Shown here: positions 6,737 through 51,293 of the stretch, one piece after another
Layout of the letters: every line of letters begins with the position of its first letter
Position numbering within the stretch: position 1 is the first letter of the stretch
Source: Galbibacter mesophilus
Lineage (GTDB): Bacteria; Bacteroidota; Bacteroidia; Flavobacteriales; Flavobacteriaceae
DNA length: 64,000 nucleotides
Direction: 5' to 3'
Assembly: GCF_023721415.1 (NCBI RefSeq)
Contig: NZ_JAMQVC010000002.1
Coordinates: 310,001-374,000 of the forward strand
The notes under the pieces: generated by a model
The model's input: the letters and a program-made list of their open reading frames with translations, nothing else
Databases searched by the model: none
What the model was told of the DNA's origin: nothing
Program-made: the position numbers and the translations under genes

Positions 6737-8475
6737 TGAACGATATAAGTTTTACAAATACAACCTATCTCTGGCCCATTTTGCTCGGTGCTTTCTTGTT
6801 GTGGATTGTTTTTCTGTGGAAAGAATGGAAGGGAACTTTTAAAGTTCAATTTTTCTTCAGCGCCGTAGTTAGTTTTTTAGCAATCGCTTGTTTGGTTGTA
6901 ATGGTGTTACAACCTACAAAGCCTCAATCCTCATCTAATAAAACAGCTATCGTTTTAACAGAGGGTTTTTCAAAATCGGTGTATGATAGTCTGAAAAAAA
7001 AGAATCGGAAAGCGCTTATTGTGGATTATCGCAAAGAGCAGCAACTTAAAGAAAAACTATCCAAAGTTTCCCGAGTTTTTGTTTTGGGAAATGGATTGGA
7101 AACCTACGACCTGTGGCAACTGAAGACGATTCCATCAACGTTTATTTCTGGAAAAGAACCGAAAGGAATTGGCAAACTTACATACAAAAACAAATTAACC
7201 CTTGGAGATTCCATTCATATCGCTGGTAATTACCATGCACCAACGGAGGGAAATCAATTATTTTTAGTAGACCCGAGTGGTCAGGAGTTGGATTCCATTA
7301 AACTTAATAACGAGCAAAAACAGTTGTTTAAACTTACTTCGGTGAGCAAAGCACTTGGTGATTTTGCTTATAGTTTGGTTCAGAAAAATTCTGAAGGAGA
7401 AACCATCGAACAGCATACTTTACCACTACAAATTCTTCCGAAGGAAGCATTGAAAGTTTTAATTCTGAATGGATCCCCAAGTTTTGAAACCAAATACTTA
7501 AAGAATTATTTGGCGGAAATGGGGAATGAAGTTTTAGTGAGAACCCAAATATCTCGTGGAAGATACAAAACTGAATATCTAAATTCCGAAACCATACAAT
7601 TTAACGGAATTTCATCATCAGTTTTGCAGGAATTCGATTTGTTGATTCTTGATGAAACTCTTTGGAATACTCTTTCTGCGGCACAACGAAATATTGTAAA
7701 AAACGCAATAGTCAGTGATGGGTTAGGACTTTTTATGCAAGCTTCTGAAAATGTACCACTTTCTTTTAAAGATTTTAGCGGGATTCGTTTTAAACAAACC
7801 AATCGTACGGAAATAAGGATCCATCCTTTTGAAAAAGTTGCTGCATACACATACGCAAATCGCTTTGTTGAAAGTATGAATTTAGTGGGAATACATTTTT
7901 CTGAAGGGGAAACGATAACCGGTTACAACCGCTTAGGAAAAGGAAGAATTGGAACTACCGTTTTAAAAAGCACTTACAATTTACTGTTGAAGGGAAATTC
8001 AGATAGCTACCGTTTTCTTTGGGCTCCCGTAATTGAAAAGTTGAGCAAACAGGAAGAAAAGGCTCTGCATTGGGAAATGGATTCTTTTCTGGCTTTCAAG
8101 GATGAACCTGTTACGTTTTCATTAGATACGGAGGAAGAGATTCCAAAAGTAACTTATGAAGGTTCTCAAATTCCTATGCGAGGTGATATTTTTATTAAAA
8201 ATCGTTGGGATGGGATAGTATATCCCAAAAAGACGGGATGGAACTCATTGAAATCGGCAAACGATACCAGCATTACAAAACAATTTTTTGTGTTTGAATC
8301 GGGCCAATGGAATACTTTAAAAAGCATTCAAACGCAGGGGGCCAATAAAAAGTATTTGTCTGATAAAACTCGAGTTGTTCAAGAGCAAGTGAAAGAACCC
8401 ATGAGCCTTTTTTGGTTCTATATCATTTTTATTGCTTGCTTGGGGTATTTATGGATTCTCCCTAAAATGAAATAA
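6736..8475 (+). CDS. BatA-cluster membrane protein with GATase1-like domain
   Basis: 579 residues; the ATG overlaps the preceding TAA (TAATG). Two N-terminal hydrophobic helices (TYLWPILLGAFLLWIVFLW and FFSAVVSFLAIACLVVMVLQ) and one C-terminal helix (FWFYIIFIACLGYLWIL) enclose a long extracytoplasmic region. Around residues 235-330 there is a class-I glutamine-amidotransferase-like fold typical of this family (KVLILNGSPSFETKYLKNYL, then LLILDETLWNTL), without an obvious catalytic Cys-His-Glu triad. This is the last gene of the MoxR cluster; a 235-bp gap follows. The function is unknown; the membrane topology and cluster membership are the supported parts. Confidence 0.7.
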   Translation: MNDISFTNTTYLWPILLGAFLLWIVFLWKEWKGTFKVQFFFSAVVSFLAIACLVVMVLQPTKPQSSSNKTAIVLTEGFSKSVYDSLKKKNRKALIVDYRKEQQLKEKLSKVSRVFVLGNGLETYDLWQLKTIPSTFISGKEPKGIGKLTYKNKLTLGDSIHIAGNYHAPTEGNQLFLVDPSGQELDSIKLNNEQKQLFKLTSVSKALGDFAYSLVQKNSEGETIEQHTLPLQILPKEALKVLILNGSPSFETKYLKNYLAEMGNEVLVRTQISRGRYKTEYLNSETIQFNGISSSVLQEFDLLILDETLWNTLSAAQRNIVKNAIVSDGLGLFMQASENVPLSFKDFSGIRFKQTNRTEIRIHPFEKVAAYTYANRFVESMNLVGIHFSEGETITGYNRLGKGRIGTTVLKSTYNLLLKGNSDSYRFLWAPVIEKLSKQEEKALHWEMDSFLAFKDEPVTFSLDTEEEIPKVTYEGSQIPMRGDIFIKNRWDGIVYPKKTGWNSLKSANDTSITKQFFVFESGQWNTLKSIQTQGANKKYLSDKTRVVQEQVKEPMSLFWFYIIFIACLGYLWILPKMK

Positions 8476-49560: not shown

Positions 49561-50233
49561 CTAAATATCCAAGTCGAAATCACTTCTAAGCTTGTCGATT
49601 AGCGGATTTTTCTCACGTAGTTTTTCATACTTTTCCATAGGCGTAAAAGCGTATTGCTTTTCAACCTCTTCGTTAATGGTTATGTAAAGCTCAATTTGGT
49701 AGTTGTTGAGATGTTTTTTTAGGTATTCCATTAAAGGATATTGGTCTCTTTCTACCTCTTTTTTTAGAGTATCATTGGCCAATTCAATCCAAATCTTGTT
49801 TTTGCCTTTTAATCGTGGCGTATCCGAACCGAGGGCAGCACCAAGAATTTTCTTACCTTGCTTATCGATTTTGGCCACATATTTTGCCCAATACTTTTGC
49901 ATCGTAGCCTCGTCGAATGGATCTTCAGGAAGGTTTTCCTCATCCACTACTTGATTCTTTTTAGCCAGCTCGTGTTCCTTTTTCTTTTTTATACTGGAAA
50001 GAGAAAGTCCGGAAACACTTTTTCTGTTCTGAAGGTTTATTTTTACATTCGGTTGAGCCGGTTTTTTTTCTTCGGAAACAGGAGTAGAGGCGGTTTCATT
50101 TTTGTCAGAAGCAACATTGTTTTGAACCGTATTGGCTATTTGCTTTTCTTCTGAAGTATTATTTTGAGAAGTTTTTTCTGAAGATACTTTGAAGAAAGAA
50201 GGAGGGATTATGAAATCACGGCCTTTTTTTTTT
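49561..50233 (-). CDS. dnaX: dnaX tau-specific C-terminal region, reached by -1 frameshift
   Basis: This frame is one base upstream (-1) of the gamma frame and is open from the A10 tract (50224-50233) to the stop at 49561. From the slip site it encodes about 220 residues: GRDFIIPPSFFKVSSEKTS, a Ser/Asn/Lys-rich linker, then PFDEATMQKYWAKYVAKIDK and a C-terminal domain resembling DnaX domain V. Joined to the first 357 residues of the gamma frame it gives a tau of about 577 residues, typical for Flavobacteriaceae. It has no own ATG; a GTG at 49947 is internal. The product would bind the polymerase alpha subunit and helicase. Sequence error is the alternative explanation. Confidence 0.8.
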
Positions 50234-51293
50234 CTCCATTATGATTGATGGAGGCAAGTTTCATTAAGCAAAGTTCAACAAGTAAACGTTGATTTCGACT
50301 GCTTCGGTAATTTAAATCACATTGGTTGGCTATTTCAATGCCTTCTAATAAAAATCCTCTGGAAGCCTTTTTACTTTGTTCCAAGTATTTTTGCTTGGCT
50401 TCGTCGCCCACCTCAAGTAGTGGTATGGTCGCTTCATTTTGGCAAACCAATAAATCCCTAAAATGTGATGCCAGTCCCGCAATAAAATGATGACCGTCGA
50501 ATCCGAGCGATAATATTTTGTTGAAATCCACCAATAACTTCGGGATATCTCCATCCAGAATAAGGTCGGTAGCTTCAAAATACGTTTGGTAATCGAGCAC
50601 ATTTAAATTTTCGGTTACAGCCTGGCGGGTAAGGTTCTCTCCTGTAAAACTCACCACCCGATCGAAAATGGAAAGTGCATCCCGCATAGCACCATCTGCT
50701 TTTTGGGCAATAATGTGCAGGGCATCATCTTCCGCTTGAATGCCTTGTTGTTCTGCAATATATTTTAAATATTCTTTTGCGTCTTTCACCGTTATCCTTT
50801 TAAAGTCGAATATCTGACAGCGAGAAAGGATGGTCGGGATTATTTTGTGTTTTTCTGTAGTCGCTAAAATAAAAATGGCGTGCTTTGGCGGTTCTTCGAG
50901 TGTCTTCAAAAAAGCATTGAAGGCAGCTTGCGAAAGCATGTGAACCTCGTCGATGATGTACACTTTGTATTTTCCAACTTGTGGTGGAATCCGCACTTGA
51001 TCAATCAAGCTACGAATATCATCCACAGAGTTGTTGGAGGCAGCATCCAATTCAAAAATATTAAATGCAAAATCCTCGTCATCACTTTGCGTACCGTCTT
51101 GGTTTATTTTCTTGGCCAATATTCGGGCACAAGTAGTTTTACCAACACCACGCGGTCCACAAAATAATAGTGCTTGTGCCAAATGGTTGTGATCAATGGC
51201 ATTAAGCAAGGTGTTGGTTATGGCCTGCTGGCCAACCACATCTTTAAAAGTCTTGGGTCTGTATTTTCGCGCAGATACTACAAAGTGTTCCAT
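50208..51293 (-). CDS. dnaX: DNA polymerase III subunit gamma/tau (gamma form)
   Basis: 361 residues from the ATG at 51293 (MEHFVVSARKYRPKTFKDVV); an in-frame ATG eight codons upstream is less likely. The AAA+ clamp-loader ATPase has Walker A GPRGVGKTTCARILAKK, Walker B KVYIIDEVHMLSQAAFNAF, the SRC motif LSRCQIFDFKRI and sensor 2 GAMRDALSIFD. The zinc module normally between Walker A and the ELDAASN motif is shortened and has no CxxC. The frame ends ten codons after domain III at GEKKKAVIS, directly behind an A10 tract. This is exactly the position expected for a gamma product, with tau made by frameshifting. Confidence 0.93.
   Translation of the reverse strand: MEHFVVSARKYRPKTFKDVVGQQAITNTLLNAIDHNHLAQALLFCGPRGVGKTTCARILAKKINQDGTQSDDEDFAFNIFELDAASNNSVDDIRSLIDQVRIPPQVGKYKVYIIDEVHMLSQAAFNAFLKTLEEPPKHAIFILATTEKHKIIPTILSRCQIFDFKRITVKDAKEYLKYIAEQQGIQAEDDALHIIAQKADGAMRDALSIFDRVVSFTGENLTRQAVTENLNVLDYQTYFEATDLILDGDIPKLLVDFNKILSLGFDGHHFIAGLASHFRDLLVCQNEATIPLLEVGDEAKQKYLEQSKKASRGFLLEGIEIANQCDLNYRSSRNQRLLVELCLMKLASINHNGEKKKAVIS
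50224..50233 (-). other. A10 slippery site in dnaX
   Basis: Ten consecutive A on the coding strand (GGAG-A10-GG). The zero-frame codons are GAA AAA AAA AAG, and the zero-frame stop comes 12 bases later. Adding one A, or a -1 ribosomal slip, opens the tau frame. Thermus dnaX uses an A9 tract and E. coli an A-AAA-AAG site, so this position is the expected one for controlled frameshifting. Confidence 0.75.

Follow-up and report, generated by a model that had tools for sequence, protein, structure and literature searches.

The run of ten As in the dnaX gene of Galbibacter mesophilus is probably a programmed slippage cassette that yields both the gamma and the tau subunit of the clamp loader, mostly at the transcriptional level. 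From the comparison of sequences across the class Bacteroidia, we infer that slippage takes place at this tract, mostly during transcription, and that the cell makes both proteins. The gene lies in a stretch of 64,000 nucleotides, hereafter the window, and the features of the locus are collected in Table 1.

Table 1. Features of the dnaX locus in the window
Feature	Positions	Strand	Remarks
dnaX zero-frame ORF, gamma subunit	50208..51293	minus	ATG at 51293, TAA at 50208; ATPase, lid and domain III matches
-1 frame, tau-specific C-terminus	49561..50223	minus	220 residues plus stop at 49561-49563
Putative A10 slippery tract (T10 on the plus strand)	50224..50233	minus	codon phase GAA AAA AAA AAG
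A_AAA_AAG heptamer, last six As of the tract and the next G	50223..50229	minus	from the sequence
Zero-frame TAA terminating gamma	50208..50210	minus	13 nt beyond the tract; stop ends 16 nt after it
+1-frame TGA	50216..50218	minus	stop ends 8 nt after the tract

The gamma and tau frames

The zero-frame ORF has 361 codons and encodes a protein of 361 aa whose C-terminal end is ...GEKKKAVIS*, the junction reading GGA GAA AAA AAA AAG GCC GTG ATT TCA TAA on the minus strand. Pfam matches on the gamma part comprise the delta'-like ATPase, the lid and domain III, the last at residues 222-354 with a marginal score (24.6 bits against a cut-off of 24.4), and gamma also matches the models NF011531 (E 4e-191) and TIGR02397 (E 2e-115). 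The first-pass annotation had placed the gamma stop just past the clamp-loader domains, and this agrees with the finding of the three domains inside the 361-aa frame. It had also put that stop 12 bases after ten consecutive As; the ten As are there, while the gap has to be corrected to 13 nt.

Some other traits of the gene and of its surroundings were also observed. The cysteine-rich (zinc) module, a usual part of DnaX, is apparently missing after GKTTCAR in the protein of the window, and fewer than three Cys were counted from the P-loop to the DAAS stretch in 204 of 296 class loci and in all 107 loci of a family subset that includes the window. The gene and a bacterial RNase P RNA (RF00010, 51393-51700, plus strand) lie head-to-head, the RNA being about 100 bases upstream of the dnaX start. 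Elsewhere in the window, a 6S-Flavo RNA (RF01685, 34702-34831, plus strand) scores 93.1 bits, the gathering score being 85.

The length proposed for the second product, about 577 residues with some 220 of them in the -1 frame, holds exactly, as 220 residues are open and 357 + 220 = 577. On its own, the tau piece matches positions 415-613 of the 614 of NF011531, that is, its C-terminal end (E 3e-21). The tau piece scores 75.9 bits and the gamma piece 636.9 bits, both under the whole-protein cut-off of this model (685), as is to be expected of fragments. Between the window and its nearest relative (G005), the tau frame keeps 75.6% amino acid identity over 217 aligned codons with synonymous sites saturated; dN/dS was not computable, as dS was saturated in all six tau pairs, and amino acid identity was used in its place. 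Given this identity in the face of synonymous saturation, tau seems to be still under selection. These data bear on a possible decay of the gene, in which the tau part would be lost and gamma alone used. The clamp-loader domains do all lie in gamma, and a few loci of our survey lack tau (4 of 296 by the survey cut, one of which, L056, may represent a second frameshift). Nevertheless, the 220-codon frame of the window is intact and conserved to the degree just mentioned, and its product matches NF011531 nearly to the end of the model, which makes decay hardly credible.

Genus relatives and the question of a sequencing error

All seven genomes of the genus Galbibacter carry A10 or A11 at the same codons, GAA AAA AAA AA(A/G). 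The gene is split in three of them, with tau at -1, and intact in four, with tau in the zero frame. The first-pass annotation had asked whether the frame offset is conserved among relatives; it is kept in the three split genomes and not in the four intact ones. The nearest relative, G005 (one contig), is split in the same way as the window; the assignment of the genus to Galbibacter is based on named loci with identities of 94, 94 and 88%. Among the intact genes, L006 has A10 and one more base downstream, and L007 and L008 have A11 with the spacing of the window, so that the frame switch of the window could lie in the tract or after it. Split genes are also the rule in the 17 f5 loci with tau (17/17) and in the nine genomes of genus g127 in the order table (9/9, judged by open-frame length).

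If one base were missing from the tract or from the sequence behind it, the same picture as a split gene would result, and L007 and L008 do combine A11 with an intact frame, as expected if a homopolymer error in sequencing or assembly had broken a single tau frame in the window. Such an error is very unlikely, close to negligible. The tract of the window has the commonest length of the class (A10 in 226 of 296 loci), the split is shared by three members of the genus and by all the f5 and g127 cases above, and across the class the tract is accompanied by off-frame stops. The same evidence, namely the tracts and the stops of the relatives, strongly supports the preference of the first-pass annotation for a real slippery site.

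Sampling of dnaX loci

The dnaX loci were gathered from genus, family, order, class and phylum samples, those of order and class being drawn by the whole gamma protein. From 353 loci (L001-L353), 328 were parsed, and after removal of another 25 parsed class loci that were duplicates or cut short, 296 distinct Bacteroidia loci were scored, with ten loci of low anchor score retained in the counts. The 25 unparsed loci comprise side hits in the own genome (L002-L004), a repeat of L288 (L334) and 21 that were re-examined by alignment. Thirteen of these 21 belong to the class; nine of them have an A-run of at least 9, and tau is at +1 in two and at -1 in one. The order sample used 100 of 129 matched genomes and omitted most members of the reduced-genome family f16 (four were added later), together with some weak, fragmentary or unselected matches. 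The class sample consisted of 87 matched genomes minus the window, G132 and one fragment, and G404 was counted under order. No counts were taken from the family table, which gives a part of its 384 matches. The named family loci were picked because they are close to the window and, in part, by pattern; one of the six patterns, NHNGEKKK, covers tract residues, which biases the family figure. The loci are related, so that the counts are not independent. Searches of plasmid and phage collections gave partial matches only, mostly of 60-80% identity, and added nothing to the analysis.

The tract, the frames and the stops across the class

Conservation of the tract, which the first-pass annotation had proposed to look for in related genomes, is broad: besides all seven genus genomes, an A-run of at least 9 stands at the site in 275 of the 296 distinct Bacteroidia loci. 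The longest run at the site is 9 in 22 loci, 10 in 226, 11 in 21 and at least 12 in 6, and it falls below 9 in 21. By codon phase, the runs of at least 9 distribute as 214 in phase 1, 31 in phase 0 and 30 in phase 2; their occurrence in all three phases indicates that the nucleotide run itself is kept, not one codon pattern. The run is present in 91 of 95 tau loci of the order sample (40 of the 91 split), in 59 of 73 of the class sample (17 of the 59 split) and in 75 of 75 named family loci, of which 7 are split, the choice of these last loci being biased.

Of the loci with a run of at least 9, 274 have tau. It is encoded in the zero frame by 201 of them, whereas 63 have it at -1 and 10 at +1. 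It is also at +1 in two further realigned loci, where the open frames are only about 390-400 nt. In 259 of these 274 loci, each of the two non-tau frames meets a stop within 30 nt, against a background of 30% at 8,220 random in-gene positions. Among tau-bearing loci with a run shorter than 9, both frames stop within this distance in 4 of 18.

Several lineages depart from this pattern. The A-tract is lost and tau lies in one frame in L262, L263, L267, L269, L276, L278, L281, L282, L309, L313 and others, and in lineages without the tract the close off-frame stops are often gone too. Three genomes of endosymbiont size (about 0.6 Mb; L324-L326) keep A10 or A11, with a downstream frame of about 390-400 nt that is the zero frame in one and +1 in two; a fourth (L323) has A8. 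Outside the class, we looked at the best 15 of 44 matches. Family f83 (L339-L343, from another class) has A9 in 5 of 5 loci, with a -1 stop that ends 6 nt after the tract, and in 4 of the 5 a +1 stop at 14-17 nt, an arrangement similar to that of Thermus. The other 10 of these 15 loci have no A-run longer than 7 within the ORF.

Apart from the A10 of dnaX, no A or T run within the 64 kb window reaches a length of 10. The genome, of 3.77 Mb, has 14 distinct A/T runs of this length, and two are a sense-strand A10 in an ORF that starts with ATG and has at least 100 aa. The only other one found besides dnaX (L416, G000:C5:150672-150681) falls at codon 499 of a 1003-aa frame. By synonymous shuffles, a run of at least 9 at the site has a chance of 0.43 per gene, given the amino acids, so that the tract in a single gene is weak evidence and it is the persistence through the class, in three codon phases, that carries the weight. 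Elsewhere in the 201 genes with tau in the zero frame, A-runs of at least 9 are depleted (14 observed against 49 expected from synonymous shuffles), as are those of at least 10 (4 against 18.8), which is expected if such runs slip. The 44 ORFs of the window, too few for this purpose, showed no clear avoidance of runs of A9 or longer (2 observed, 3.2 expected).

Differences in tract length might also reflect genomic phase variation, that is, replication slippage that alters the tract among cells and thereby toggles tau. Within one genus the length does differ between species, as Lacinutrix alone has A9 with tau at -1, A10 with tau in the zero frame and A11 with tau at +1. However, the class-wide mode at A10 is strong and tau is an expected core part of the replisome. 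Moreover, several split loci (e.g. L010, L081, L088) still have A10, so the switch of frame may lie after the tract. We regard phase variation as very improbable.

Slippage by the polymerase or by the ribosome

In the mechanism that we propose, RNA polymerase would slip on the ten As and produce mRNAs of mixed tract length. An mRNA of normal length, or longer by a multiple of three, would be read up to the nearby TAA to give gamma (361 aa), and one with an additional A, or with two fewer, would bring the tau frame into register to give tau (about 577 aa). The third register would end at once at the TGA, leaving a gamma-like product. As slippage would fill all three frames, the frame encoded in the DNA would matter little; small insertions or deletions, within the tract or right behind it, may turn a template that has tau in the zero frame into one that has it one base off, or the reverse, and neither protein would be lost.

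Of the 201 loci with tau in the zero frame, 197 have a -1 stop (background 49%) and 178 a +1 stop (background 35%) no farther than 20 nt from the tract. Within 9 nt, the -1 stop is present in 178 of the 201 and the +1 stop in 27, the latter not above background. Codon choice shows a related bias. At tau codon index 4, the commonest Ile position, which was chosen after looking at the 274 loci, 121 of 137 Ile codons are ATA. For the first eight codons of tau together the share is 201 of 353, against 1,565 of 7,768 upstream. When followed by A, ATA creates a TAA one base on.

The first-pass annotation had left transcriptional and ribosomal slippage side by side. Both may indeed occur, but the data incline towards the polymerase. 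The ribosomal alternative is a programmed -1 frameshift on A_AAA_AAG that would make tau from a uniform A10 mRNA, the mechanism of E. coli with its polarity reversed. The heptamer of the window is identical to that of E. coli dnaX (L354, used as comparison) and sits in the zero frame, and tau is at exactly -1 in the window, as it is in 63 of the 274 loci. Only the UUU anticodon was found for tRNA-Lys among the 40 tRNAs found in the genome, and a sole tRNA-Lys(UUU) is said to favour ribosomal shifting in a 2016 review (PMC5009743). The excess of tau at -1 over +1 (63 against 10) and the nearer -1 stops in loci with tau in the zero frame are also what a ribosomal shift predicts, and they count against the polymerase; one added A, though, predicts both equally well.

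Against a ribosomal device stand, in the first place, the 12 loci (10 and 2 realigned) with tau at +1, out of reach of a -1 shift, and the enrichment of +1 stops noted above. A pure -1 ribosomal device would need neither, and polymerase slippage is favoured in consequence. According to Antonov (2013, PMC3711429), mixed shift directions among orthologues indicate transcriptional realignment, and by this rule tau at -1 and +1 among our loci points to the polymerase. Shine-Dalgarno-like sites at the E. coli spacing occur in 8 of 274 loci, compared with 4 at a control place, and in the window a GGAG directly borders the tract, leaving 4 nt to the heptamer where E. coli has 10 nt. By raw energy, the fold of the 60 nt downstream also appears weak, at -3.0 kcal/mol in the window versus -19.7 in E. 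coli, although this is a weak test, as energies are confounded by base composition. Dinucleotide-shuffle z-scores miss the E. coli stem itself (z about 0), which leaves raw energies as the usable measure. For every second usable class locus (n=137), the mean z was -0.56 against -0.30 for an in-gene control, with z below -2 in 10% against 6%, and the mean energy was -7.6 against -8.8, so that the class loci are slightly more structured than the control by z and yet weaker in mean energy. Taken together, these indirect lines favour slippage mainly by RNA polymerase, and ribosomal -1 shifting may act alone or in addition; as the whole explanation of tau, the ribosomal shift appears unlikely, but deserves to be kept in mind.

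Evolution of the frame

A FastTree protein tree of 292 loci requires at least 39 changes between the intact and the split state. The number falls to 24 after collapsing branches under 95% support and to 9 at under 99%, and errors in the tree can inflate the higher counts. In 50 shuffles of the labels on the 95% tree, the mean was 39.8 changes and the minimum 34; since the observed 24 lies below this minimum, the state is partly inherited. Grouping the loci by name gives 54 groups of at least two members. Both states occur together in 12 of these, including 'uncultured Flavobacteriaceae', a name that does not denote a genus. On balance, we lean towards the view that gamma and tau of Bacteroidia come from one frame-agnostic cassette, formed by the A10 and two off-frame stops, whose frame has drifted almost neutrally among three states many times, and that loss of the tract tends to take the stops too.

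If this is true, a core replication gene of a major bacterial class would depend on slipping RNA polymerase for its decoding, and beyond the tract its DNA frame could drift freely. Read literally, about one in four of the loci (73 of 274) would have a short dnaX, with tau made nonetheless. This could account for dnaX genes that look short or 'frameshifted' in Bacteroidia genomes, and it warns against taking such tracts as errors. Furthermore, intact, -1 and +1 relatives, often of the same genus, constitute a natural experiment on transcriptional versus ribosomal slippage.

Comparison with known systems

The first-pass annotation stated that the locus reproduces the arrangement of Thermus and E. 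coli. This does not stand, because the polarity is reversed: tau is in the zero frame in those genes, whereas here gamma is in the zero frame and tau is shifted. With E. coli, the window shares the A_AAA_AAG, a close stop and the production of gamma and tau from one gene, the latter predicted here. It differs in the opposite polarity, in the Shine-Dalgarno that E. coli has at 10 nt and, by raw energy, in the apparently far stronger downstream fold of that gene. In E. coli, a -1 ribosomal frameshift gives gamma as the shifted product (PMC5009743). The fixed shift direction expected of E. coli-type orthologues is not seen in our survey, where 63 of the 274 loci have tau at -1 and 10 have it at +1, as do 2 more outside this count.

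Thermus offers a closer parallel in some respects. A long A-run (at least 9) lies at the end of the gamma domains in both cases, with close stops in both non-tau frames; the run is A9 and tau is in the zero frame in Thermus, whereas the window has A10 and gamma in the zero frame. The tau-zero state of Thermus is shared by four of the seven genus relatives and by 201 of the 274 loci. Larsen reportedly described transcriptional slippage in Thermus thermophilus dnaX in 2000. Two papers (PMC1088944, PMC5009743) state that the Thermus gene slips on A9 and has tau in the zero frame.

Reversed polarity itself has precedents. In Antonov (2013, PMC3711429), a two-ORF dnaX with gamma in the zero frame and tau at -1 is listed for 17 genes in 12 genera, out of 1106 genomes, with A10 at the junction in nine of the 17 and transcriptional realignment as the inferred mechanism; such a dnaX is also noted in the 2016 review (PMC5009743). 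The passages of Antonov (PMC3711429) consulted do not describe the continuum of intact, split and +1 genes, and the frameshift finder used there would presumably not flag intact relatives. Among the top matches of the open-licence literature searched, we found no description of class-wide conservation or of frame switching in Bacteroidia dnaX. The window resembles the two-ORF genes of Antonov (2013) in its overlapping gamma and tau frames, in tau at -1 and in the A10 junction. Reversed polarity with A10 was thus already known from that work, and the window is a further case of it.
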